Shown in pieces: positions 2,003 through 15,957 of a stretch of 64,000 nucleotides of DNA. The DNA is from Anaerolineales bacterium (GTDB lineage: Bacteria > Chloroflexota > Anaerolineae > Anaerolineales > UBA4823). Position 1 is the stretch's first letter. Every line of letters starts with the position of its first letter. The notes under the pieces were generated by a model that was not told the DNA's origin, searched no databases, and saw only the letters and a list, made by a program, of their open reading frames with translations. Where the stretch lies: positions 1-64,000 of the forward strand of contig JAFGQI010000137.1 of NCBI GenBank assembly GCA_016935755.1, in the 5' to 3' direction. The position numbers were made by a program, and so were the translations under genes.

Positions 2003-5000
2003 CTACTCTTCCTTGTCCTCGCCCGCATCATACTGCATGGCGGCCATCTGGCGGTACATCGCCCAGCGCCCATCGGCGTCCTTCTGGGCCTGCTTGATTA
2101 ACATCTCGGCGCGCTGTTCATCGGTCTGAACGAGCATGCGGTAGCGGCTCTCATTATATGCGTACTGGCTGATCGGGATGGTCGGTTCCTTTGAATCGAT
2201 GGAGAGCGGATTCTGTCCCTGGGCGATGAGGGCCGGGTTATAGCGATAGAGAGGCCAGGCGCCCGACTGAACTGCCAGCCGCTGCTGCTCTAAGCCTTTC
2301 ACCAGATCATAACCATGCGCGATGCAGTGGCTGTAGGCGATGATCAGCGAAGGGCCTTCGTAAGCATCTGCCTCGATGAAGGCGCTCAGGGTTTGCTGGT
2401 CGCTGGCGCCCATTGCAATCCGGGCGACATAGACATAGCCATAAGCCATGGCAAGCATCCCGATATCTTTCTTCGGCAGCCCCTTCCCCTGGGCAGCAAA
2501 CTTGGCGACCGCAGCCCGTGGGGTGGATTTGGAAGCCTGACCGCCGGTATTTGAGTAAACTTCCGTGTCCAGCACCAGGATATTGACATTCCGGCCAGAT
2601 GCCAGGACATGATCCAGCCCACCATAACCGATATCATAGGCCCAGCCATCACCACCGATAATCCAGACACTCTTACGCACCAACACATCTGCGATGCTCA
2701 ACAGATTCTTCGCTCGTGGATCATTGATCTGCTGCAAACGCTGCTTGAGCACACCGACGCGCTCTCTCTGCTGGCGAATGCCCAGTTCGGAAGATTGGTC
2801 TGCCTGGAGCAGCTCATCTACCAGGGCACTGCCAATGTGCTCAGCAAGCTGACCGAGCAGTTCCTGAGCATACTCCAGTCTCTTATCCAGAGTCAGGCGC
2901 ATGCCCAGGCCAAACTCGGCGTTGTCTTCGAACAGCGAGTTTGACCAGGCTGGGCCGCGGCCCTCACTATTGAACGACCAGGGAGTGGTTGGCAGGTTAG
3001 CGCCATAAATGGATGAGCAGCCGGTAGCGTTTGCCACGGTGATGCGGTCGCCAAAGAGCTGACTGAGCAGCTTCAGGTAGGGCGTCTCACCACAACCCGC
3101 GCAGGCGCCAGAGAACTCAAACAAAGGTTGTAAGAGTTGTGAGTTCTTGACAGATTTCACACTGATGGCGGTGCGGTCAACTTCAGGGATGGTCAGGAAA
3201 TATTCCCAATTGGCGCGCTCGCGTTCACGGATGGGAGGTTGAGGAGCCATGTTGATGGCTTTTCTCCCCACCTGGCTTTTATCCTTGGCCGGGCAGACTT
3301 CCACGCATAGACCACAGCCAGTGCAGTCCTCTGGCGAAACGATCAAGGTATATTTTTTATTGGGCAGTTCTTTCCAACGAGCGTCAGTAGATAACCAGCT
3401 CGCAGGGGCATTCTCCAGATATGACGGGTCGTACACCTTCTCGCGGATCACAGCGTGCGGACAGACAAAGCAGCATTTTCCGCATTGGATGCAGATATCT
3501 GGCTCCCAGACGGGTATTTCCAGGGTGATGTTGCGCTTCTCCCATTGAGTTGTCCCAGTTGGATAGGTGCCATCGGCTGGAAAGGCGCTGACTGGCAGGC
3601 TATCCCCCTCGCCAGCAATGATTCTGCCCAGGGTCTGGCGCACGAATTCTGGAGCTTCTGCCGGCACTGGCGGTCGGCGGGTGAAGGTGCTGGTCACATG
3701 TTCTGGCACAGTAACTTCATAAAGGTTGGCAAGAGTCTGGTCTACAGCCTCAAAGTTCGCTTTGACCACAACATCACCGCGCTTGCCGTAGGTTTTTTCG
3801 ATGGCGTGCTTGATTTCGGCGATAGCCTGCTCGCGCGGCAAGATTCCGCTGATGGCGAAGAAACAGGTCTGCATGATGGTGTTGATGCGGCCGCCCATCC
3901 CGGTCTTTTCGGCCACTTCATAGGCATCAATGACATAGAAGCGCAGTTTCTTGTCAATGATACTTTGCTGTGTCTCACGCGGCAGGTGATCCCAAACTTC
4001 CTCTGGTTTGTAGATGCTGTTTAGCAAGAAGACTGCTCCTGGCATGGCGTATCGGAGCACATCATATCTTTCCAAGAAAGAGAACTGGTGGCAGGCGACG
4101 AAATTGGCTTTGCTGATCAGGTACGGAGCGCGAATCGGTTTTGGACCAAAACGCAGATGCGAAACGGTTACAGACCCCGATTTCCTGGAGTCGTAAACAA
4201 AGTAGCCCTGAGTATGGTTTTCAGTCTCTTCACCGATGATTTTGATCGAGTTCTTGTTTGCGCCCACCGTGCCATCGGCGCCTAAGCCCCAGAACACACA
4301 GCGCACAGTCTCGGGTGATTCGATCGAGAAATCCGCATCGTAGTCCAGGCTGGTCTGGGTGACATCGTCATAGATGCCGATGGTGAAATGGGTTTTAGGG
4401 TTATCCTTGAGCAATTCATCGAAAATACCCTTGACCATGGCAGGGGTAAATTCCTTGGATGACAATCCGTAACGCCCACCGATGACCCGCAGGCCTTTTC
4501 CAGCTTGATCGCTCTCGCTGATAGCAGTGACAACATCCTGGTAAAGGGGCTCGCCAATAGAACCAGGTTCCTTGGTACGGTCCATCACGGCGATGGACTT
4601 GACTGTAGCAGGCAGGGATTGCATGAAATGCATTACCGAGAAAGGCCGGTACAGGCGTACTTTAACTACGCCAACTTTTTCGCCTTGCTCAGCCAGGAAC
4701 TGGGCGGTTTCGCCAGCTGTCTCGGCGCCTGAACCCATGATGACAATAATGCGTTCTGCATCAGGCGCACCTACATAGTCAAATAAATGATATTGCCGAC
4801 CGACCAGACCGGCGAATTGATCCATGGCTTTCTGGACGATATCCGGGCAGGCCTCGTAGTAGGGGTTGACAGTCTCGCGCCCCTGGAAGAACACATCCGG
4901 GTTCTGCGCCGTACCGCGCAAAACCGGGTTATCCGGTGAAAGGGCGCGCCGACGGTGTTCTTGCACCAGTTCGTCGCTGATCATGGCGCGCATATCATCA

Positions 5001-5563
5001 TCGGTCAAGCGTTCAATCTTGTTAACTTCAGAGGATGTGCGGAAGCCATCAAAAAAGTGCATGAACGGCACATGTGCTGCCAGTGTAGCCGAATGGGCGA
5101 TCAAGGCCAAATCCTGGGCTTCCTGACCCGAATTTGACGCTAACATGGCAAAACCCGTTCCCCGGGTTGCCATAACGTCCGAATGGTCACCGAAGATCGA
5201 CAGCGCCTGGGCTGCCAGGGAGCGGGCGGTGACATGGAATACCGCCGCGGTAAGCTCTCCCGCAATCTTGTACATATTCGGGATCATTAAGAGCAAGCCC
5301 TGAGAGGCGGTGAACGTTGTTGTCAGTGATCCGGTCTGCAAGGCGCCATGCACCGCTCCGGCTGCCCCACCTTCGGATTGCATCTCCATCACCAGCGGTA
5401 CTGTCCCCCATATGTTGGGCTGCTTTTTCGCAGACCATTCATCCGCCAACTCGCCCATTGAAGAAGAAGGGGTGATTGGATAGATAGCTATCACTTCACT
5501 CAGTTTATGGGCAACAAAGGCAGTTGCTTCGTTGCCATCGATCGTTACCATGGGTCTTTTCAT
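2003..5563 (-). CDS. nifJ: pyruvate:ferredoxin (flavodoxin) oxidoreductase
   Basis: A 1186-residue single-chain 2-oxoacid oxidoreductase that converts pyruvate and CoA to acetyl-CoA, CO2 and reduced ferredoxin. The domain order is complete: an N-terminal pyrimidine-binding domain (MVTIDGNEAT, AYPITPSS-like), a gamma domain, two [4Fe-4S] motifs CIQCGKCCFVCP and CTGCGLCVEVCP near residues 690-760, the CAGCGETPYLKL cysteine motif, and the TPP site GGDGWAYDIGYGG followed by DTEVYSNTGGQ. Length is normal for the fused form. The ATG at 5563 has a GGAG site 10 nt upstream. It marks a fermentative or acetyl-CoA-based anaerobic energy metabolism. A palindrome over its predicted promoter suggests control. 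Confidence 0.95.
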   Translation of the reverse strand: MKRPMVTIDGNEATAFVAHKLSEVIAIYPITPSSSMGELADEWSAKKQPNIWGTVPLVMEMQSEGGAAGAVHGALQTGSLTTTFTASQGLLLMIPNMYKIAGELTAAVFHVTARSLAAQALSIFGDHSDVMATRGTGFAMLASNSGQEAQDLALIAHSATLAAHVPFMHFFDGFRTSSEVNKIERLTDDDMRAMISDELVQEHRRRALSPDNPVLRGTAQNPDVFFQGRETVNPYYEACPDIVQKAMDQFAGLVGRQYHLFDYVGAPDAERIIVIMGSGAETAGETAQFLAEQGEKVGVVKVRLYRPFSVMHFMQSLPATVKSIAVMDRTKEPGSIGEPLYQDVVTAISESDQAGKGLRVIGGRYGLSSKEFTPAMVKGIFDELLKDNPKTHFTIGIYDDVTQTSLDYDADFSIESPETVRCVFWGLGADGTVGANKNSIKIIGEETENHTQGYFVYDSRKSGSVTVSHLRFGPKPIRAPYLISKANFVACHQFSFLERYDVLRYAMPGAVFLLNSIYKPEEVWDHLPRETQQSIIDKKLRFYVIDAYEVAEKTGMGGRINTIMQTCFFAISGILPREQAIAEIKHAIEKTYGKRGDVVVKANFEAVDQTLANLYEVTVPEHVTSTFTRRPPVPAEAPEFVRQTLGRIIAGEGDSLPVSAFPADGTYPTGTTQWEKRNITLEIPVWEPDICIQCGKCCFVCPHAVIREKVYDPSYLENAPASWLSTDARWKELPNKKYTLIVSPEDCTGCGLCVEVCPAKDKSQVGRKAINMAPQPPIRERERANWEYFLTIPEVDRTAISVKSVKNSQLLQPLFEFSGACAGCGETPYLKLLSQLFGDRITVANATGCSSIYGANLPTTPWSFNSEGRGPAWSNSLFEDNAEFGLGMRLTLDKRLEYAQELLGQLAEHIGSALVDELLQADQSSELGIRQQRERVGVLKQRLQQINDPRAKNLLSIADVLVRKSVWIIGGDGWAYDIGYGGLDHVLASGRNVNILVLDTEVYSNTGGQASKSTPRAAVAKFAAQGKGLPKKDIGMLAMAYGYVYVARIAMGASDQQTLSAFIEADAYEGPSLIIAYSHCIAHGYDLVKGLEQQRLAVQSGAWPLYRYNPALIAQGQNPLSIDSKEPTIPISQYAYNESRYRMLVQTDEQRAEMLIKQAQKDADGRWAMYRQMAAMQYDAGEDKEE

Positions 5564-5724: not shown

Positions 5725-5845
5725 TTCCGAACCAGACAAGGCAAGAATCTTGCATCGATGATTTATAATGCATGCATGGATATTGTCACAATGATTATAA
5801 AGCTTATTGAATTTGTTTACATCGATTCCATGTTAATTGAATTTG

Positions 5846-5860: not shown

Positions 5861-6115
5861 ATGGATACTGACCGGCACATATGGCGGGTTTGGATCAGTG
5901 CACTCCGTCGGTGGGGGTTAGAGGAGTGGGTTGCGGCGCTCCTGGAGGGAACCGGCTCCCTGTCACTCCTCGGCGCGCAAATGATATATCTCGGCCAACC
6001 ACTCCTGAACCTGACCCTTCCGGCAGAGCACCTGGATGCAGCAGCCAGGGTCTTGGAAGATGAGCCCAGTAAGAGAGCTTTTGTACAAATGCTTCGGGAG
6101 GCGCCATCACTGTGA
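5861..6115 (+). CDS. small hypothetical protein, first gene of the unit
   Basis: An 84-residue protein I do not recognise. It has no signal peptide or membrane helix; the visible pattern is an amphipathic W-rich N-terminal half (HIWRVWISALRRWGLEEWV) and an acidic/leucine C-terminal half. An in-frame ATG exists at 5837, but the -10 hexamer at 5849-5854 places the transcript start at the ATG at 5861, and no ribosome-binding site precedes either, so 5861 and a leaderless mRNA are preferred. The stop overlaps the GTG of the next gene by 4 nt, indicating translational coupling to the membrane proteins downstream. It may be a cytosolic partner of that complex (inference). Confidence 0.65.
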   Translation: MDTDRHIWRVWISALRRWGLEEWVAALLEGTGSLSLLGAQMIYLGQPLLNLTLPAEHLDAAARVLEDEPSKRAFVQMLREAPSL

Positions 6116-6876
6116 ACCTTTCGGAATATGTTAGCCCTGATATCCTTGGCTTGGTTTTTATTATCCTTTTTTTGATTCTAATGGTATTTTATACCTTGAG
6201 AACTCGCAAGGCGCCCAGATGGCCTCAGCGGGAAATCCCCGCCTTTGGTAAACTCCGCCGTGGGATTGGCTTGGCTGTAGAAGCTGGAAAACGTTTGCAC
6301 CTTACTCTAGGGCATGGAGGGGTGAGCGGCGTCGAGGGAGGCTCGGCCCTGGTGGGTTTGAGTGTGCTGCAGCGGATTGCTCGGGTTGCATCGGTCAGTG
6401 ACCGGCCGCCGATCACCACCAGCGGCGAAGCGACCCAGGGAATTCTTTCCCAGGATTCCCTCCGCAGCGCTCTCCGTTCGATCAATGCAGATGACTTATA
6501 TGAGCCTGCCGCAGGGCAGATCAGCGGTCTAACTCCTTTTTCCTTTGCGGTGGGAACATTACCGGTTATCTATGATCAGCACGTGGCGGTTACTATTCTG
6601 GTAGGCCACTTTGGCAGTGAAGTGGTGTTGATTACTGATGCAGCTGAACGTAATGGAAACCTCACTCTGGGTGGCAGCGATAGTCTCCCTGCTCAGGCAG
6701 TCCTGTATGCCACTGCCCAGGAGCCGCTGATTGGTGAAGAACTCTATGCAGCGGGAGCCTATTTACAGGCTGGCTCTATGCATCTGGCAAGTTTGCGAAC
6801 TCAGGATATATTCCGCTGGATCCTTGCTGGAGTCATCCTGGCGGGTGCGCTGCTGAAATTGGCAGGTGTGCTGTGA
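6112..6876 (+). CDS. membrane protein with central domain, DUF6754-like
   Basis: A 254-residue protein with a membrane helix at about residues 11-28, a globular middle part and a second helix at about 234-252. The middle includes LGHGGVSGVEGGSALVGLS, repeated small-residue stretches and a segment with HVAVTILVGHFGSEVVLITDAAER. I place it, with moderate certainty, in the family labelled DUF6754, known from Chloroflexota and a few other lineages and without an assigned function. It starts at GTG, overlapping the previous stop by 4 nt, and its own stop overlaps the next GTG by 4 nt. Such spacing suggests the products are made in fixed ratio as a complex. Confidence 0.65.
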   Translation: MNLSEYVSPDILGLVFIILFLILMVFYTLRTRKAPRWPQREIPAFGKLRRGIGLAVEAGKRLHLTLGHGGVSGVEGGSALVGLSVLQRIARVASVSDRPPITTSGEATQGILSQDSLRSALRSINADDLYEPAAGQISGLTPFSFAVGTLPVIYDQHVAVTILVGHFGSEVVLITDAAERNGNLTLGGSDSLPAQAVLYATAQEPLIGEELYAAGAYLQAGSMHLASLRTQDIFRWILAGVILAGALLKLAGVL

Positions 6877-7499
6877 TAGGCAAAATAAGAAATTTTGTTT
6901 TAGCATCCATCGCCATCGCGGTTGGTTTTGTAGTCCTGTCAGGCTATTTCATTGATTTGCCTGCGCTGAGCAGCCTGCGGGCTTTGTTCTTACAATGGGC
7001 AGTGATCTTAGCTGCGGTTGCATTATTGGTGGGTTTAGCTAACCTGGCGCGAGTGCATTGGAATAAGATCAAGACTCGACAGCCCGGTGGAGCGTATAGT
7101 TTTGTGCTTCTGGTTTCAATGATTGTAACCTTGCTGGTGGTGGGTTTTCTAGGCCCCACGGGCGACTGGTCTGTATGGATATTTGAATATATCGTGCTGC
7201 CAGTGGAATCTAGCTTGATGGCTTTGCTGGTAGTCGTTTTGGTCTATGCAGGTGTCCGGCTGCTGAACCGGCGAATTGATCTCACCTCACTCCTGTTTTT
7301 AGGCACGGCCTTGTTTATCTTAATTGGGACAGTCTCTCTCCCAGGGGTTGATCTACCTGTATTACGGGATGTGCGTATCTGGGTTTCTCAAGTGTTGGCT
7401 TTGGCTGGGGCAAGAGGTATTTTGCTGGGAGTAGGCCTGGGAACCATTGCAACAGGCTTGCGTATCTTGCTGGGCGCTGATCGCCCATATGGTGGTTAA
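6873..7499 (+). CDS. polytopic membrane protein, unknown function
   Basis: A 208-residue, very hydrophobic protein with about six predicted helices (roughly residues 10-28, 38-58, 76-96, 108-130, 140-158, 170-195) and basic loops such as RVHWNKIKTR. No transporter, enzyme or sorting motif is visible. The GTG start overlaps the preceding stop by 4 nt, and the next gene begins 2 nt after its stop. Its constant company in this unit argues for an integral-membrane subunit of the same assembly rather than a stand-alone transporter; that is inference. Confidence 0.6.
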   Translation: MIGKIRNFVLASIAIAVGFVVLSGYFIDLPALSSLRALFLQWAVILAAVALLVGLANLARVHWNKIKTRQPGGAYSFVLLVSMIVTLLVVGFLGPTGDWSVWIFEYIVLPVESSLMALLVVVLVYAGVRLLNRRIDLTSLLFLGTALFILIGTVSLPGVDLPVLRDVRIWVSQVLALAGARGILLGVGLGTIATGLRILLGADRPYGG

Positions 7500-7501
7500 G
7501 T

Positions 7502-10042
7502 ATGGCTGACATCCGTTGTCCGCTGTGTGGAAAACTGAATCCGGATGATCTAGATGTTTGCCGGTTCTGTCAGGCTCGCCTGAAACCATTTTGGGTGGGT
7601 AGTGCGCCTGATGAGGGCAATATTTCACCTGGCGCATCCAGTCCTGCGGATAGAGCAGACGAGTCAGCGACCAATCTGCCGGATTGGCTTCAATCTCTAC
7701 GCCAATCTGAACAACAAGATAGTGATGAAAAAGCCGAAGAATCCAATGTTCCGGATTGGTTAACTGGGCTGAGAAGTGATTCCCTGCAAGATGATCGTTT
7801 TGGCCCAGAAGAGACTCAGGAAGCTTCTCAGGATGAGTCGCCCTCTGCAGAACAAGATTGGATGGGACGGCTTGGCGGCGAAACTCAGGCTGCCGCAGAA
7901 TCAGCGGATATTCCTGGCTGGCTGCATTCCATGGAAGCGAAATCGCCTGATGCCGGCGAACCGGTCACCCCAGAATGGTACTTACATGAGGCGGTTGATC
8001 ATACACCTCCGGAAGAGGCTGTGCCAGACTGGCTTTCTCCGGCTTCCACTCTGCCTGAAGAGCAGCCTTCAACAGTGGAAGAGCCTGCAGAAGGTGAGCT
8101 GCCGGATTGGCTTTCGCCAGCTGCCGTTGACGCGACGCCCCCCTCTACCCCGGAGGGTGAGCCCCCTGAGGTCGAACTGCCGCGTTGGCTGTCAACTGCT
8201 TCGACAGGTGCTGAACCAGCGCCTGTCCCTGAGGGCGAAATCCCAGATGAAGGATTGCCGGACTGGCTCTCATCTGCTGCACCGACTGTCTCCTCGCCAA
8301 CCGAACCAACTCAAGAGCCAGAAGAAACTCAATTGCCCAATTGGTTATCTGGTTTAGAGCAGGAACTTCCAGACTGGCTGTCAGGCGCAGAGGTGGCTGA
8401 ACCCCCGGTTCCGATGCCAGAAGCGGGTGAAATCCTGGCCCCTCTGCCAGAATCGGCTGCACCAGTAGAGATAACACCAGCGGGCGATGAAATGCCAGAC
8501 TGGTTGGCAGATTTTCAAAGCACGACGGAACCAGCTCCTCAGGCTGCAGAAGAAATAGAAGAAATCGATTGGGCGGCTGCATTGAGTGAGCCCGTTCTAT
8601 CAAGCCAGGCTGAGCCATCACAGCCGGAAGCGGAAGCTTCAATTGGGCAAGCAGAGAGCGCAGAAGCTGATCTGGATTGGCTCAGAGACCTGGAAGCATC
8701 CTTCCCCGAAATTCCAGTCGAAGCAGCTGGTCAAGGCGCAGCAGTATCTGTCGCTCCCATTCTCCCGTTCGCTCCGGAGCAGCCAGGACAAACACCGGTT
8801 GAGGCATTTGAGAGCGAGGGGCTGCCAGGCTGGCTCTCAGAAGTAGCTCCTGAACAAGAGATAGCTCAACCGCAGGAGGAAGCGGATTTGGCCCCTGCCA
8901 GTCTCCCCAGCTGGTTGGAGGCTATGCGCCCGGTTGAGACGGTAGGCGCATCGGCTGGAGAGACAGATGAATTGGCCGCGCCTGTGGTGGGCGCTGGCCC
9001 ACTAACCGGCTTGAGAGGGGTGCTGCCCGCAGAGCCTGATATCTCGTATATTCGAAAACCTCCTGCCTACTCTGTCAAGCTGCAATTAACAGACGCACAA
9101 CGAACCCAGGTGGAATTGCTTGAACAGCTGGTTAAAGCTGAAGGTGAGCCGCTGCCGGTTCCGGGTCGCGCCATCATCAGCTCGCAAAATATCTTTCGGA
9201 TTGCGATTTCGCTGATCCTGATTTTATCCATCCTCTGGCCTTTGATTAGCGGTACTTCCAAACCGCCTGAGGTCTTCCCGGATGTTGAGACCTTGGCTTC
9301 CAGCCAGTTAATCTCCAATCTGGCTCCTGGTTCACCCGTACTCCTGGCTGTTGATTATGAACCAGGGTTATCGGGTGAGATGGATGCGATTTCAGGCGCG
9401 GTTGTCGATTACCTCATGATTAAGGGCGTTTATCTGGTCTTGATTTCAACTACTGCAACTGGACCTGTTCAGGGAGAACATTTGCTCTCCGCTGTAAACC
9501 TGGCTGGCGGCCATCAATATCGCGCCCCAGATCAGTATATCAATCTGGGTTTCATCCCCGGAGGGCCGGCTGGTTTGCTTGGTTTTGCGCAGAATCCGCG
9601 AGGTATTGCACCTTCCACGATTGAGGGAGAGGCTGCCTGGGATTTGCTGTTCTTACAGAAAGTTGAATCGGTGGCAGGATTTAACCTGGTGATTGTGGCT
9701 ACCGATAAAACAGATACCGCTCGAGCCTGGATCGAACAGGTACAACCCCACTTGGCTGCTACACCCATGCTCATGGTGGTGAGCGCTCAGATAGAACCGA
9801 TTGTGCGGCCCTATTATCAAAGCAGCGCAGGACAGGTGCAAGGTCTGGTGGCTGGATTGGCTGGTGGGGCAACTTTTCAGAGCGCGTTGGGGCGCAGTGG
9901 AGAAGCTGCGGGATACTGGTCTTCGTTTCAGGCAGGCATATTGGTCGCGACGCTTCTGATTTTAGTGGGGGGGATAGTGTATGTCGGATTGTTTTTATTC
10001 AGAAGTGAGAAAGACGGCGCCAAACGAGAGGTGAAGACATGA
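7502..10042 (+). CDS. zinc-ribbon protein with ~16 W-L linear motifs and a membrane-anchored domain
   Basis: An 846-residue multidomain protein. Residues 6-23 form a zinc ribbon (C6, C9, C20, C23). Residues ~58-471 are acidic, Pro/Glu/Ala-rich and probably disordered, and carry about 16 copies of a short motif of the type LPDWLS, VPDWLT, IPGWLH or LDWLRDL at intervals of 15-40 residues. A helix at ~563-583, an ordered domain of ~230 residues and a last helix at ~809-833 follow. With the ribbon in the cytosol, the ~230-residue domain would lie outside the membrane. The repeats look like docking sites for a partner, which would make this the scaffold of the unit (inference). Its last codons overlap the next ATG. 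Confidence 0.7.
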   Translation: MADIRCPLCGKLNPDDLDVCRFCQARLKPFWVGSAPDEGNISPGASSPADRADESATNLPDWLQSLRQSEQQDSDEKAEESNVPDWLTGLRSDSLQDDRFGPEETQEASQDESPSAEQDWMGRLGGETQAAAESADIPGWLHSMEAKSPDAGEPVTPEWYLHEAVDHTPPEEAVPDWLSPASTLPEEQPSTVEEPAEGELPDWLSPAAVDATPPSTPEGEPPEVELPRWLSTASTGAEPAPVPEGEIPDEGLPDWLSSAAPTVSSPTEPTQEPEETQLPNWLSGLEQELPDWLSGAEVAEPPVPMPEAGEILAPLPESAAPVEITPAGDEMPDWLADFQSTTEPAPQAAEEIEEIDWAAALSEPVLSSQAEPSQPEAEASIGQAESAEADLDWLRDLEASFPEIPVEAAGQGAAVSVAPILPFAPEQPGQTPVEAFESEGLPGWLSEVAPEQEIAQPQEEADLAPASLPSWLEAMRPVETVGASAGETDELAAPVVGAGPLTGLRGVLPAEPDISYIRKPPAYSVKLQLTDAQRTQVELLEQLVKAEGEPLPVPGRAIISSQNIFRIAISLILILSILWPLISGTSKPPEVFPDVETLASSQLISNLAPGSPVLLAVDYEPGLSGEMDAISGAVVDYLMIKGVYLVLISTTATGPVQGEHLLSAVNLAGGHQYRAPDQYINLGFIPGGPAGLLGFAQNPRGIAPSTIEGEAAWDLLFLQKVESVAGFNLVIVATDKTDTARAWIEQVQPHLAATPMLMVVSAQIEPIVRPYYQSSAGQVQGLVAGLAGGATFQSALGRSGEAAGYWSSFQAGILVATLLILVGGIVYVGLFLFRSEKDGAKREVKT

Positions 10043-10731
10043 GCGAGATCTTGCCCGTAGAACTGGCTGGCGCCTTATTGGGTTTTCTGCTGACCCTGAG
10101 TGTATTCAGCTACCTTCTGGGAGATAATTTTTTATTCCGGCTGGCGATCCATATTTTCATTGGTGTTTCGGCTGGGTTTGCAGCTGTGGTGGTCTGGTAT
10201 AACGTGATCTGGCCTCAATTGATCGCTCCAATGATCTCTGGCAGCCAGCCGGACCGTTTGCTGCTGCTGGTGCCATTGATTTTAAGCCTGTTGTTATTAG
10301 CAAAAGCGTCGCCCCGCCTATCCGCCCTGGGAACCCCTGCTTTGGCATATCTGGTTGGGGTAGGTGCGGCTGTAGCGGTGGGAGGAGCGCTCTTTGGGAC
10401 AATCTTCCCGCAGGTGAGCGCCTCGATCAACCAGTTCGATATGGAAGCAGCCCGTCAAAGCAGCGCCGGAACGGGCCTTTTCCTGGTGAATGGCATTTTA
10501 TCTCTGGTGGGCACATTAGCCACCCTGGTCTATTTCCAGTTTGGCTCGCGCCCTGCGCAGGGACGATCACAGCCAGGACCGTCCTGGCTTGAATCGATTG
10601 CTCTAATTGGACGGGGTTTTATCGCCATTACATTCGGTACATTGTTTGCCGGAGCCATCGCAGCGGCCATGGTGGCCCTCATTGAGCGATGGGACTTTAT
10701 GATTAAATTTATCCTTTCGTTTTTTTCATAG
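10039..10731 (+). CDS. polytopic membrane protein, unknown function
   Basis: A 230-residue protein with about six hydrophobic helices (roughly residues 8-28, 33-55, 70-90, 95-122, 145-168, 190-218) separated by short loops. No conserved motif of a known transporter family is visible. The ATG overlaps the stop of the zinc-ribbon gene by 4 nt, and the MutL-like gene starts 9 nt after its stop. It is probably the second integral-membrane subunit of this unit. Confidence 0.6.
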   Translation: MSEILPVELAGALLGFLLTLSVFSYLLGDNFLFRLAIHIFIGVSAGFAAVVVWYNVIWPQLIAPMISGSQPDRLLLLVPLILSLLLLAKASPRLSALGTPALAYLVGVGAAVAVGGALFGTIFPQVSASINQFDMEAARQSSAGTGLFLVNGILSLVGTLATLVYFQFGSRPAQGRSQPGPSWLESIALIGRGFIAITFGTLFAGAIAAAMVALIERWDFMIKFILSFFS

Positions 10732-10740
10732 CGCCATCCC

Positions 10741-12498
10741 ATGCCTACATCACTGGTTGCAGCTGAATCAATGTTAGTGGTCGATGTGGGATCCGTAATG
10801 ACCCGCGCCATGCTCTTTGATGTGGTAGATGGGCAATACCGGTTCCTGGCATCTGGTGCGGCGCCATCTACAGCCGGGGCGCCCTATCATAATGTGAGCG
10901 AAGGTGTACGTTCGGCCTTGGACCGCTTACAAAGTATAACCGGGCGGGTCTTGATCGGCGCAGATGAACAGCTGATCATCCCGTGTTCAGGAGAAGGCAC
11001 AGGTGTAGATACCTTTGCAGCCACCATTTCGGCTGGGCCGCCGATCAAGGTTGTCGCAGTGGGGTTGTTGGAAGATGTTTCCCTGGAGAGCGCTCGCCGT
11101 CTGGCTATGACCACCTACAGCACGATTGTGCAAACGATCAACCTGAACGATCGCCGTAAGCCCGAGGCGCGGATTGATTCAATATTGCGCTTGCGGCCGA
11201 ATCTGATTGTGGCCGCCGGCGGTACGGAGGATGGCGCTTCACAATCTGTGCTGAAACTGCTCGAAGCAGTCGGCCTGGCGTGCTATTTGCTGCCACAAGA
11301 ACAGCGACCGGAGATTATCTTTGCTGGCAATCAAGCTTTGCAGGATGAAATTCAATCCCTGCTGGGTGGTGTGGCAGCCGTTCATTATGCTCCCAATATT
11401 CGCCCTACGCTGGAAGTAGAGCAGTTGGAAGCCGCTCAGTCGGAAGTGGCGCACCTTGTCAGCCAGATGCGGGTGCGGTCGCTCCCAGGAGTTGAAGATT
11501 TGAACAGCTGGGCGGGCGGGGGACTCATACCGACCGCCACCGCCTTTGGTCGGATCATTCGCTTTTTGAGCGAATCGCATGTTTCCAATAAAGGGGTCTT
11601 TGGAATCGATATCGGCTCTTCGGCCACTTCGGTGGCAGCAGCTTTTTCAGGTTCGTTATATTCAGGAGTGTTCCCACAGTTGGGATTAGGATATGGTCTG
11701 GCAGGTCACTTCGAGCGTGTTCCATATCGAGATGTAGCCCAGTGGTTGACTTATGATATATCTGAAGATAACCTGCGCGAATATATCCTGAACAAAAAAA
11801 TCCATCCAACAACCCTTCCGGCAACACAAGAAGATATGGAGTTGGAGCAAGCCATGGCTCGCTGCAGCATGCAGGCAGCGGTCAAGAATATTGTCAGCTG
11901 GTTTCCTCCCACTGTTGCCATACCTGGCGATGGCTTGCTGCCACCAGTCGAACCCATTTTTGCCACTGGCGGGGTGCTTTCTGGAGCGCCAAGCCTGGCC
12001 CATGCTGTAATGATGCTGTTGGATGGTTTACAGCCCACCGGTACAAGCACATTGATCCTGGATAAGAGCCATCTGGCCTCAGCGCTAGGGGCTGCTGCGG
12101 CGCTAAATCCGCTGCTGGTGGTACAGGTTCTATCATCGAATGCTTTCACTTACCTGGGCACGGTCATTTCGCCGGTCGGGAATGCGCGCTTTGGAACGCC
12201 CATCCTGCGCCTGAAAATGGTTTATGAAAACGATCAGGAATTGACCCGCGAGATTAAGCAGGGTGATTTGGAAGTTTTGCCTCTTCCATCCGGACAATCT
12301 GCCCGTATCCAGTTATACCCCCTGCACCGGTATGATATTGGCATGGGAGCGCCGGGTCGAGGCGGCGGGCTGAGGGTAGCTGGTGGAGCGCTGGGTGTTG
12401 TCATCGACGCTCGTGGACGTCCATTATCTTTGCCGGGCGATTCAGGCAAGCGGTCCGAGCTTTTGAAAAAGTGGCTTTGGACTCTGGGAGGTCAGTAG
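10741..12498 (+). CDS. MutL/GlmL-family ASKHA protein
   Basis: A 585-residue protein of the ASKHA (actin/Hsp70/sugar kinase) fold, closest in pattern to the MutL (GlmL) proteins first seen beside glutamate mutase. Two phosphate-binding segments are visible, LVVDVGSVMTRAMLFDV (~11-26) and GVFGIDIGSSATSVAAA (~285-301), and a late adenosine-type segment FATGGVLSGAP (~400). No B12-dependent mutase subunit lies in this window, so a glutamate mutase role is not supported here. It sits after three membrane genes and 3 nt before the barrel-like gene, so it may be the cytosolic nucleotide-driven subunit of the unit (inference). This MutL is unrelated to the mismatch-repair protein at 29377. Confidence 0.75.
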   Translation: MPTSLVAAESMLVVDVGSVMTRAMLFDVVDGQYRFLASGAAPSTAGAPYHNVSEGVRSALDRLQSITGRVLIGADEQLIIPCSGEGTGVDTFAATISAGPPIKVVAVGLLEDVSLESARRLAMTTYSTIVQTINLNDRRKPEARIDSILRLRPNLIVAAGGTEDGASQSVLKLLEAVGLACYLLPQEQRPEIIFAGNQALQDEIQSLLGGVAAVHYAPNIRPTLEVEQLEAAQSEVAHLVSQMRVRSLPGVEDLNSWAGGGLIPTATAFGRIIRFLSESHVSNKGVFGIDIGSSATSVAAAFSGSLYSGVFPQLGLGYGLAGHFERVPYRDVAQWLTYDISEDNLREYILNKKIHPTTLPATQEDMELEQAMARCSMQAAVKNIVSWFPPTVAIPGDGLLPPVEPIFATGGVLSGAPSLAHAVMMLLDGLQPTGTSTLILDKSHLASALGAAAALNPLLVVQVLSSNAFTYLGTVISPVGNARFGTPILRLKMVYENDQELTREIKQGDLEVLPLPSGQSARIQLYPLHRYDIGMGAPGRGGGLRVAGGALGVVIDARGRPLSLPGDSGKRSELLKKWLWTLGGQ

Positions 12499-12501
12499 GT
12501 T

Positions 12502-13554
12502 ATGTTAGCTCCCGTTACCCACATCCTGCCATTAACCACGATCCACCGGGAACGCGTCTTGCAAATACCGGGGAAAGTGATCGTGCGCAAAGGACAGAAA
12601 GTTAACGCTTCAGATACGATTGCAGAAGCCAGGTTGGATTCTGAGCATTTGCTCCTGGATATCAGCCGCAGCCTGGGAGTATCCTCCAAACAGGTTGATA
12701 AATATATCAAATGTGTAGCTGGGGACGCCCTGGCGGAAGGCGACCTGGTTGCTGGCCCGGTAGGTATGGCTCGCCGGGTGGTGCGTTCGCCTGTCAATGG
12801 CCAGGTGCTTCTGGCTGGGAGCGGCCAGGTATTGATTGAGGCAGCGGGGCAGCCATTTCAGCTGAAGGCAGGCCTATCAGGGGAGATCGCTGATTTAATA
12901 TCTGACCGGGGAGCGATTGTTGAGACCACCGGCGCTCTGATTCAAGGGGTATGGGGAAATGGTCGCATTGACTCTGGCTTGATGACGGTATTGCTGAAAT
13001 CGCCCGATGAAAGCCTGACCCCAGATCAACTGGATGTAAGTTTACGGGGAGCCATTGCCCTGGCCGCTCATTGCGGCGATCCCGAAGTATTAAAAACGGC
13101 CGAAGAATTGCCTCTGCGTGGCTTGATTTTGTCCACCATTTCTGCTAATCTGGTGAAATTGGCATTACTTATGCACTATCCTATTATTGTATTGGATGGT
13201 TTTGGGCAGCGCCCGATGAATTCAACCGCGTATAAACTGCTCACTACGAATGAAAGGCACGATGTATCCATCAATGCTGAACCCTGGGATCGCTATGCCG
13301 GCACAAGGCCCGAGGTTGTTATTCCCCTGCCCGCACCAGGCACACCCGCGCTGCCGCGCGATACGGATGTGTTTTCACCAGATCAGCAGGTGCGAGTCTT
13401 ACGAGCGCCTTACGCCAATATGATTGGGTCAATCACTGCATTGAAAGGCCAGGTTGTGTTTCCGAATGGATTGCACTTGCAAGCCGCAGAAGTGCGTTTA
13501 GAAAGTGGAGAAAGCGTCTTGGTGCCTCTTGCGAATCTTGAAGTGCTGTTATAA
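12502..13554 (+). CDS. conserved protein with lipoyl-like barrel and KOW-like C terminus
   Basis: A 350-residue, probably cytosolic protein I cannot assign to a named family. Residues ~88-117 (VRSPVNGQVLLAGSGQVLIEA) resemble a biotinyl/lipoyl-type barrel, but no lysine occupies the expected hairpin tip. Residues ~200-235 include ILSTISANLVKLALLMHYPIIVLDGFG as alternating strand and helix. The last ~50 residues read as a small beta barrel of KOW type (VLRAPYANMIGSITALKGQV...). It begins 3 nt after the MutL-like gene and ends the unit; the next gene has its own strong ribosome-binding site after 55 nt. The close coupling suggests a direct partner of the ASKHA protein. Confidence 0.6.
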   Translation: MLAPVTHILPLTTIHRERVLQIPGKVIVRKGQKVNASDTIAEARLDSEHLLLDISRSLGVSSKQVDKYIKCVAGDALAEGDLVAGPVGMARRVVRSPVNGQVLLAGSGQVLIEAAGQPFQLKAGLSGEIADLISDRGAIVETTGALIQGVWGNGRIDSGLMTVLLKSPDESLTPDQLDVSLRGAIALAAHCGDPEVLKTAEELPLRGLILSTISANLVKLALLMHYPIIVLDGFGQRPMNSTAYKLLTTNERHDVSINAEPWDRYAGTRPEVVIPLPAPGTPALPRDTDVFSPDQQVRVLRAPYANMIGSITALKGQVVFPNGLHLQAAEVRLESGESVLVPLANLEVLL

Positions 13555-13609: not shown

Positions 13610-14209
13610 ATGTCTTTTGAAAATCTAGATCTGGGCGATGATATGGATAACGAGGAGGGTACCCCTCCAGAAGAATCCAGCAACCGCATGTTTTTTATTG
13701 CAGCGGGCATCCTTGGAGCGATTGCCCTGGTTTTCTTAATCTGCATTGCTGTTTACGCTTTAGTGCTGCTGCCGCAGCGGAAGGAAGCTCAATCTCAGCA
13801 GAAAGCCACGCTGGACGCGCAAAATACCGAAGTCGCCTCGATCATCAATAAGACTTCCACGGCTTACAGGCAGGAGGCGATTGAGGCTGCTTATACGGCG
13901 ACACCCACGGCCACCAGCCCGGCGACATTTACTCCACGCGCCAGCGCGACCTCGGTGGTGGCGGTTGAAGGATCGGCAACATCCCTTGCACCGACTTTGC
14001 AGCCAGACATGGCCACGGCAACAGCCTTGCATGCCACACTAACATACAACGCGGTTTTGTTCAATGAAACGGCAACCGCTGCTGCTCTCTTGCCCACCCA
14101 GGTCCCCGATACGGGCTTCGCGGATGATGTGGGGCTTCCGATGATGATAGGAATTGCAGTCCTGTTAGTAGTGGTGATCTTCCTGGCTCGGCGATTACGG
14201 ACAGCATGA
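13610..14209 (+). CDS. two-helix Thr/Ala-rich surface protein with VPDTG signal
   Basis: A 199-residue protein: an acidic N terminus, a membrane helix at 27-53, a long Ala/Thr/Pro-rich stalk with repeated TATPTAT- and SATS-type stretches, the motif VPDTGF at 165-170, a second helix at 175-193 and the basic tail RRLR. The end matches the layout of a Gram-positive sorting signal (P-x-T-G, helix, positive tail), but the N-terminal helix is not followed by a clear cleavage site, so it may instead be a bitopic protein. The ATG has a strong AGGAGGAG site. It follows the unknown unit and may belong to it. No sortase gene is seen in the window. Confidence 0.65.
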   Translation: MSFENLDLGDDMDNEEGTPPEESSNRMFFIAAGILGAIALVFLICIAVYALVLLPQRKEAQSQQKATLDAQNTEVASIINKTSTAYRQEAIEAAYTATPTATSPATFTPRASATSVVAVEGSATSLAPTLQPDMATATALHATLTYNAVLFNETATAAALLPTQVPDTGFADDVGLPMMIGIAVLLVVVIFLARRLRTA

Positions 14210-14268: not shown

Positions 14269-15957
14269 ATGAATGTGGATCGCGGCAATGTTGTTGCCAT
14301 CCTGAGGCGGGGGCATATATTTCAGGGCCTGGAATTAGCCCACCTGGCGCGCATTGCAGATTTTTTCGAACCGGTCGAACTGGAAAAGAACCAGGTTGTT
14401 TTTCTGGAGGGCAGCCGCCCAGACTATTTTTATATTGTTCTGGATGGCAGGGTGCAGGTCACCCGCAGAACCAAGAAGCGTGTTCAACTGCTGAATTTCT
14501 TAGGCCCGGGGGATTTTTTTGGCGAACAGGCATTCATATTTAATTCACTTCGATCGGCCACAATAAAAACAGTTACGCCCACAACTTTGCTGCGCATGTC
14601 GCAGACCAGGTTTAATCAGCTGCTCAGCGAATACCCGGGAATTCGTTTAAACCTGACGGCAACCGCGCAAAGCCGTAAGCGCGCTCGAAATAAACGTTTC
14701 AGTTGGCTTGGCAAGGAAGAGATCCTCTATTACATCGCGGGTCGCCATGTGCTTTTTCTGATCAGAGCATGGCTGCTGCCATTTTTACTCCTGGCGGGTT
14801 CCCTGGTGGTTTTGGCGGTGCTGCTGTTCCCGCTGGATAGTGGAATAGGTTTTTCGCCCATATTATTCTTTCCTATTTTAGGATTGATCATTGCGCTCTT
14901 GTGGGGTGCCTGGATTTGGATCGATTGGAGCAACGATTATTTCATTGTCACCAGTCAGCGGGTGATCTGGCAGGAAAAAATCCTGGTCATTTACGACAGC
15001 CGTCATGAGGCCACCCTGAGTCAGATATTGGCTGTGAATGTCAGTTCCAGCCAGATTGGCCGGATATTAAATTATGGGAATGTGGATGTGCGCACATATA
15101 CCGGCAGTATTCTCATGCGTAATGTTGAGCAGGCTTATCGTTTTGCAGGGCTTGTTGACAGCTTGCGTAAGCGCGCCTCGGAACTTTCTCATGAGCAAGA
15201 GATACAGACCATTGATGAAACTCTGGGTAAAGCGTTGTTCAAAACTGCCCACCCGGAGGCTGATCTGATCCCGGCCGCATCTGCTCCCTCAACTGCGAGT
15301 GAAAAGAAAGCGCCGTCAAAGAAGAAACAAGACAACCCAAGTTGGTGGCGAACTTTTCTGAAAGTTCGCTATCAGGAAGGTAAGGTGATCACGTATCGGA
15401 AGCATTGGCTGCTGTTATTGGCTAAGATCTGGACCCCATTTGTGATTCTGCTCCTGACCTGCCCGATCTCAACCTATCTGACCTGGAATCAAATATTTTC
15501 CCTCACCTTCTTTTTATTGCTGACGCCTTTCTTCCTCGTGATCTTTGGTTGGTTGGTCTATGACTATCTGGATTGGAGCAATGATATTTATCGCCTGACG
15601 CCTGACCAGATTTTAGATATCGAGCGAAAGCCCTTAGGGCAGGAGCAGAAGAAAACAGCCAGCCTGGGTTCGCCTGACCTTCGTGTGGAGCATACCCGTG
15701 CAAATATCTGGGGAATCATCTTCGATTTTGGGACGGTGACGATCAATGTTGGTCAGACGCAGTTTATTTTTAATGGCGTCTACAACCCGGACCAGGTTCA
15801 TAAAGATGTTTCCGATTATCAGCAAGCATTCATGCATAAAAAAGAGGAAGATGCAGAAAACCGGCGTAAAGAAGAAATGCTCAAGTGGCTGACCTCCTAT
15901 CACCGGCAGCAAGAAAAATTAGAAAACGAAGAGAATAACCCTGGAGAAGGCGGTTAA
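14269..15957 (+). CDS. cNMP-binding domain protein with two membrane bPH-like domains
   Basis: A 562-residue membrane protein. Residues ~10-125 form a Crp-type cyclic-nucleotide-binding domain (FEPVELEKNQVVFLEGS, FLGPGDFFGEQAF, SATIKTVTPTTLL). Two copies of a unit follow, each with a pair of membrane helices (about 163-188/196-222 and 380-403/408-430) and a bacterial PH-like domain beginning WSNDYFIVTSQRVI in the first and WSNDIYRLTPDQIL in the second. There is no DNA-binding helix-turn-helix. The family is seen in Chloroflexota and has no proven role; a cNMP- or lipid-responsive membrane sensor is inference. It is preceded by the hairpin at 14221-14253. Confidence 0.75.
   Translation: MNVDRGNVVAILRRGHIFQGLELAHLARIADFFEPVELEKNQVVFLEGSRPDYFYIVLDGRVQVTRRTKKRVQLLNFLGPGDFFGEQAFIFNSLRSATIKTVTPTTLLRMSQTRFNQLLSEYPGIRLNLTATAQSRKRARNKRFSWLGKEEILYYIAGRHVLFLIRAWLLPFLLLAGSLVVLAVLLFPLDSGIGFSPILFFPILGLIIALLWGAWIWIDWSNDYFIVTSQRVIWQEKILVIYDSRHEATLSQILAVNVSSSQIGRILNYGNVDVRTYTGSILMRNVEQAYRFAGLVDSLRKRASELSHEQEIQTIDETLGKALFKTAHPEADLIPAASAPSTASEKKAPSKKKQDNPSWWRTFLKVRYQEGKVITYRKHWLLLLAKIWTPFVILLLTCPISTYLTWNQIFSLTFFLLLTPFFLVIFGWLVYDYLDWSNDIYRLTPDQILDIERKPLGQEQKKTASLGSPDLRVEHTRANIWGIIFDFGTVTINVGQTQFIFNGVYNPDQVHKDVSDYQQAFMHKKEEDAENRRKEEMLKWLTSYHRQQEKLENEENNPGEGG

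Follow-up and report, generated by a model that had tools for sequence, protein, structure and literature searches.

Why seven genes should lie almost end to end on one strand of an Anaerolineales genome, and what their products might do together, is the question raised by positions 5861-13554 of contig JAFGQI010000137.1 (NCBI GenBank assembly GCA_016935755.1). The first 64,000 nucleotides of this contig, here called the window, belong to a genome that is 87.5% complete with 7.45% contamination. The open reading frames of the window place all seven genes, here g1 to g7, on the + strand. Three of the junctions (g1/g2, g2/g3 and g4/g5) are 4-nt overlaps and the others are gaps of 2 nt (g3/g4), 9 nt (g5/g6) and 3 nt (g6/g7), exactly the close packing that an initial annotation of the window had described. 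An in-frame TTG at 5837 lies upstream of the ATG start of g1.

That the seven genes form a selected, conserved unit is strongly supported by comparison of their sequences across Chloroflexota. The sample comprised 251 genomes, with 60 extracted stretches searched using iterated profiles of each window protein. The order g1-g7 is shared by nine GTDB families (f1, f2, f3, f4, f11, f12, f20, f23 and f28) and g1-g6 occur in order in five more (f13, f24, f34, f60 and f63), giving a total of 14 families in which order is conserved, with sequence identity to the window proteins dropping to around 20-35% between classes. The genes which flank the unit in the window (IF-1, NifJ/porG, def, recF and rsmG) are not retained at the unit loci of other families. 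Two of the encoded families illustrate the linkage well: the DUF6754 protein (g2) is present in 56 of the 251 genomes, and all but one of these (G105) also yield a match of MutL type (g6). The pair lies on a single contig in 44 of the 56, always within about 8 kb, and on separate contigs of fragmented assemblies in the other 11. At least 567 relatives of g6 were confirmed in GTDB species genomes. In 80 loci taken from those listed, a block running from g1 to an additional gene, g8, is complete in 46; the remainder mostly lack one end of the block only, and many lie on short contigs. Homologues of g1 were seen in 100 loci and of g8 in 98.

Since order is conserved while the flanking genes change, the clustering is not a product of chance. 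It might be argued that unrelated housekeeping genes have simply come together by accident, no common biochemical pathway being nameable for them, yet the same order in 14 families, at such low identity and in changing surroundings, makes this vanishingly improbable. A shared function is very likely because the genes constitute a real, conserved unit, and one whose order persists through so much divergence must do something important. The initial annotation had suggested looking for the same gene order across Chloroflexota, and held that genes not kept together in related genomes would speak against a unit; what is found is that they are kept together. Its count of seven stands for g1-g7, although in Anaerolineae the conserved block extends to g8, which follows g7 and in which an LPDTG-like stretch precedes the last helix.

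Table 1. Genes of the conserved unit and features within their products (window positions).
Feature	Position	Strand	Description
g1	5861-6115	+	small cytosolic protein, 84 amino acids from ATG; no family; no transmembrane helix
g2	6112-6876	+	DUF6754 (PF20539); two transmembrane helices flanking a Rossmann-like alpha/beta domain
g3	6873-7499	+	protein with six predicted transmembrane helices; no family; C-terminal GxALGxxxxGxRxLxGxDRPY conserved
g4	7502-10042	+	zinc-ribbon-like N-terminus, PxWL array, transmembrane helix, Rossmann-like domain (probably extracytoplasmic), transmembrane helix
g4 CxxC...CxxC zinc-ribbon-like segment	7517-7570	+	residues 6-23; from sequence and weak DZR_2 match
g4 PxWL motif array	7676-8917	+	9 copies
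g4 C-terminal Rossmann-like domain and long C-terminal transmembrane helix	9263-10039	+	AlphaFold2 model; probably extracytoplasmic
g5	10039-10731	+	protein with six predicted transmembrane helices; no family; motifs SYLxGDNxLFR and GTLxPQ
g6	10741-12498	+	MutL-type ASKHA protein
g6 ASKHA core	10771-12135	+	
g6 extra C-terminal domain	12136-12495	+	carries GGxLGxVIDARGRP
g7	12502-13554	+	barrel-sandwich-hybrid protein; C-terminal KOW domain ~13363-13536
g8	13610-14209	+	two-transmembrane-helix protein with Thr-rich segment; part of the conserved block in Anaerolineae

The protein types named at the outset, namely a DUF6754 protein, two polytopic proteins, a zinc-ribbon-like scaffold, a MutL-type ASKHA protein and a barrel/KOW protein, were all recovered (Table 1). 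Only two of the seven reach the Pfam thresholds: g2, which matches DUF6754 with 91.9 bits against a gathering score of 27 (E=4.8e-26), and g6, which matches MutL (PF13941) at E=3.2e-68 over positions 1-447 of the 450 in the profile, nearly its full length. The same search gave nothing above threshold for g1, g3, g5 and g7 and weak zinc-ribbon matches alone for g4. Five of the proteins thus fall short of any Pfam threshold, and of the other two one is assigned only to a domain of unknown function. Candidate transmembrane segments number six in each of g3 and g5, two in g2, two in the C-terminal part of g4 and none in g1.

The motifs DxGSxxT[KR], AGG, DxG and GG of the ASKHA protein are retained in most lineages, for which reason nucleotide binding by g6 is likely. 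Its core shares the phosphate-1, AGG, phosphate-2 and adenosine motifs with GlmL/MutL, the glutamate mutase accessory protein, but g6 continues for some 120 residues beyond that core, in a domain bearing GGxLGxVIDARGRP, and is linked to membrane genes and g7, usually with no mutase subunit as a neighbour. Against the NCBIfam GlmL model (NF040745) it scores 101.3 bits, well under the cut-off of 475. Judged by its sequence, g6 is an ASKHA protein and not GlmL; comparison with PDB sequences returned nothing significant for it.

Membership of Pfam MutL nevertheless invites the reading that g6, like MutL/GlmL, serves a B12-dependent mutase as a chaperone in repair or loading, the membrane genes being an add-on, for example for cobamide delivery. 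Mutase genes of the methylmalonyl-CoA type are indeed widespread, occurring in 195 of the 251 genomes, and the window's own genome contains three PF01642 matches, all on other contigs (C162, C42 and C101). The earlier statement that no B12 mutase is present therefore holds near the unit, where no gene for a DxHxxG B12-binding mutase subunit lies beside g6, but fails for the genome. In 21 of 95 related loci, mcmB and/or meaB lie divergently upstream of g1, mostly within 1 kb (mcmB, with LDGHDRG, and/or meaB in L063, L065, L072, L073, L077, L079 and others), a minority arrangement, though one that lends this reading some weight. In complete genomes such as G005, G112 and G118, by comparison, the PF01642 genes listed lie at a great distance from the unit, and one genome of 99% completeness (G072) carries the unit in full yet gives no match to PF01642, though other B12-binding proteins are present there. 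Moreover, Chloroflexota do possess MutL proteins with high scores: the four examined are all separated from g6 by a long branch, two of them (L032 and L033) adjoin a small DxHxxG protein, and G176 holds both kinds. Taken with the low GlmL score, these observations make a mutase chaperone role for g6 quite unlikely.

The composition of reduced loci indicates which genes of the unit belong most closely together. In several families (f29, f45, f47, f31 and others) the loci are reduced to g4, g6 and g7, with g1, g2, g3 and g5 lost. The g4 proteins of these core-only loci keep the zinc-ribbon-like N-terminus and the PxWL motifs, mostly lack the Rossmann-like domain and end in a basic, aromatic tail. 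In a tree of g6 proteins, the seven-gene locus L084 pairs with the core-only L110 (support 0.997) and the seven-gene L083 with the core-only lineages of f29, f45 and f47 (support 0.883), deeper nodes being poorly supported. Because seven-gene and core-only lineages are paired in this way, the membrane genes have probably been lost at least twice, separately. Genomes of Chloroflexia type show a different variant, in which g7 is found by profile search not beside g6 but at an unlinked site (E 1e-83 to 1e-89 in G118, G134, G238, G110, G166, G150, G034, G070 and G061) among neighbours that on inspection were not telling. In most of these Chloroflexia-type loci g6 bears a long tail ending in a basic aromatic peptide similar to that of core-only g4, and in three of them the g6 tail contains two PxWL motifs.

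The partner g7 combines two domain types. Of 24 members, up to 10 show similarity to barrel-sandwich hybrids of the RnfC_N/NqrA/biotinyl type and 11 show KOW, the g7 profile matching Spt5 KOW at 1.2e-07; GALxQGVWGNGR and GFGxxPM are conserved. Both domain types are familiar, from RnfC/NqrA on the one hand and NusG/Spt5/L24 on the other, but their combination in g7 matches no known protein here and the unit lacks Rnf/Nqr subunits. Divergence of g6 and g7 is more closely correlated (r=0.96 over 80 loci) than that of any other pair in the unit (0.85-0.93). Given this closest co-divergence, and co-occurrence even where the two genes are unlinked, we infer that g6-g7 is the best-supported interaction of the unit.

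The third core protein, g4, is distinguished by its array of short motifs, which in the window are LPDWL59, VPDWL83, VPDWL174, LPDWL200, LPDWL252, LPNWL278, LPDWL289, MPDWL331 and LPSWL468. Counted with the strict pattern [VILMFA]P[DESANQ]W[LIMVF], these nine copies compare with a median of 6 over 138 homologues, fragments included, and with a maximum of 53 in a Chloroflexia g4, where shuffled sequence would be expected to contain 0.07. PxW[LIMV] occurs 23 times in 237,087 residues of the other operon families. Flanks are acidic and L or V precedes the proline, the typical form being [DE][LV]P[DA]WL, often with R or K as the next residue. A DNA-pattern scan of the window genome found clusters of PxWL in g4 only; the remaining hits, considered as other multi-PxWL proteins, were single motifs in unrelated enzymes or contained no in-frame motif. 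Within the core of g4, g6 and g7, PxWL arrays are confined to g4, which leaves g6 or g7 as the simplest candidates for the receptor. The N-terminal CxxC pairs of g4 are present in 98 of the 138 homologues, and the match to DZR_2 is weak (E=0.006), under the curated cut-off. Long VPAWL runs with a regular spacing of 16 to about 23 residues were seen in the Chloroflexia g4 proteins of L090 and L085, which suggests rapid repeat expansion.

A motif of this kind has a partial counterpart in cell division. FtsA and SepF bind the C-terminal region of FtsZ (PMC9939409); in both settings an ASKHA protein, in the case of g6 presumably near the membrane, goes with a short Phi-P-x-aromatic-L motif where a flexible region ends. 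The FtsZ C-terminus in the genomes studied here is mostly D[IV]PxFLR, resembling the g4 form in shape, and FtsA is encoded in the window's genome. It could accordingly be proposed that g4 acts in division or wall synthesis, its array mimicking the FtsZ peptide and drawing in FtsA or SepF instead of g6. Several points render this unlikely: g4 has W where FtsZ has F as the aromatic residue, a basic residue at +4 is not general, no division genes recur beside the unit, and gene linkage ties the motif to g6 and g7, not to FtsA. Nor is g6 itself an FtsA, its Pfam match being to MutL only, while separate FtsA matches are found on other contigs, one of them beside FtsZ. The g4 motif, furthermore, occurs in up to 53 copies, and its carrier is a transmembrane scaffold where that of the FtsZ peptide is a tubulin homologue. 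As a separate matter, several of these Chloroflexota genomes (L242-L247), the window's own included (G000:C95:14998-15282), encode a second, divergent FtsZ, in some cases without the normal C-terminal peptide.

The reading we prefer, and hold tentatively as somewhat short of an even chance, is that the unit specifies one membrane-tethered assembly in which an ATP-switched ASKHA/g7 pair docks on a multivalent membrane scaffold. The proteins g6 and g7 would act as a pair, and g6, switched by ATP, would dock on PxWL either directly or through g7, in a manner akin, as a working model only, to that of actin-like FtsA on the FtsZ C-terminal peptide. The array might thereby gather many ASKHA subunits beneath the membrane. 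Many lineages, the window's included, encode together with this core a membrane module made up of g2, g3, g5 and the Rossmann-like domain fused to g4; the ATP-dependent conformation of the ASKHA protein could be relayed to the module and its extracytoplasmic domain.

Several findings weigh against this assembly or restrict it. In some lineages (f20, G019 and G176) g4 contains no motif of the strict pattern although g6 and g7 are present, and docking through PxWL is for that reason not essential. The full FtsZ-like form, [DE]-Phi-P-x-W-L-[RK], accounts for 151 of the 450 Chloroflexia sites and 56 of the 808 Anaerolineae sites, while core-only lineages show it at none of their 73; with such a minority of sites the FtsZ parallel is only partial. 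A high degree of co-divergence is partly to be expected from vertical inheritance alone, and two of the 14 genomes checked with the g7 profile (G240 and G116) gave no match.

Models of the membrane-tethered domains were obtained with AlphaFold2. Both g2 and the C-terminal part of g4 were predicted as a Rossmann-like alpha/beta domain with membrane helices, the predicted local distance difference test (pLDDT) scores being 93.7 and 96.2, respectively. Positive charges after the first transmembrane helix suggest that the g2 domain is cytoplasmic, and those near the g4 helices that its C-terminal domain is extracytoplasmic. Foldseek comparison of the two models with the PDB produced none at E<=0.001 and only generic Rossmann folds with TM-scores of ~0.2-0.45; by sequence, too, g2 found nothing significant in the PDB. 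Profile comparison gave no support for homology between the g2 domain and the g4 C-terminal domain, nor for any other two proteins of the unit.

The initial annotation had envisaged an energised envelope complex. Its description of the make-up, with an ASKHA protein, membrane subunits and a multivalent adaptor, agrees with our results; an ion-driven machine is not supported by them. In the form nearest to that wording, g3 and g5 would make an ion-gradient-driven transporter or motor with g6 as its regulator, as the encoding of two six-helix and two bitopic proteins together in the seven-gene lineages might encourage one to think. Against this, the predicted transmembrane segments of g3 and g5 contain no conserved Asp or Glu, the acidic residue expected of an ExbB/MotA/TolQ-like protein; the two match no family, no P-loop ATPase or ABC component was found among the unit proteins in family searches, and the core survives loss of the membrane module. 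A transporter or motor of this sort is accordingly very unlikely.

The proposed scaffolded ASKHA assembly at the membrane has a further architectural analogue. The inner-membrane platforms PilM-PilN-PilO and GspL-GspM couple a cytosolic ASKHA protein to bitopic membrane proteins, with polytopic proteins in addition. The unit offers the same three classes of protein, but no pilus or secretion family is represented among the seven and it lacks pilin, secretin and secretion ATPase. DUF6754, of which g2 is a member, is a family without a described function, and no paper in the literature searched names it. That literature likewise held no paper connecting Chloroflexi, actin-like and MutL, and nothing useful for the unit on GlmL/ASKHA, synteny or PilM-PilN. 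A comparison with PADLOC models, made with anti-phage defence in mind, gave nothing better than E=0.088. Since each known system tested fails in a defining feature and none describes the combination, the unit, as far as its sequences tell, has no known counterpart in the databases searched and the combination appears to be new; it could later be reclassed as a variant of the ASKHA membrane platform. A more ambitious proposal, which we regard as doubtful, is that of an undescribed kind of bacterial membrane machine, ancient within Chloroflexota, in which many MutL-related ASKHA ATPases would be gathered by up to tens of short PxWL motifs on a transmembrane scaffold and, with a KOW/barrel partner, drive a membrane module having Rossmann-like domains on both membrane faces. 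If the model of an ASKHA protein on a motif array is true, actin-fold membrane assemblies would gain a new type, distinct from those of division, pili and secretion, and a B12-mutase chaperone fold would have been turned to other use. The g6-g7 pair, PxWL as a putative docking code and the two membrane-tethered domains, for which no close relative has been solved, present themselves as targets.

The distribution and surroundings of the unit yielded some further observations. Among plasmid records g6 found GlmL-type matches only and g2 and g3 none, and viral contigs gave no relatives. Proteins similar to g2, g3, g5 and the C-terminal part of g4 are presumably present in Planctomycetes and other phyla, which we treat as a lead only. 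Upstream of g1 in the window, on the - strand, lies a divergent gene of pyruvate:ferredoxin oxidoreductase type (2003-5563); because its homologue is upstream of the unit in 8 loci only, we place it outside the unit. Downstream, positions 14269-15957 encode a cyclic-nucleotide-binding domain with membrane helices and PH-like domains, and 15 loci have a gene like it on the downstream side of the unit. Among the flanks in L061-L200, a phosphoglucomutase-like gene lies downstream and oriented towards the unit in about 50 loci, and in 19 there are glgC-like genes upstream that share the unit's strand.

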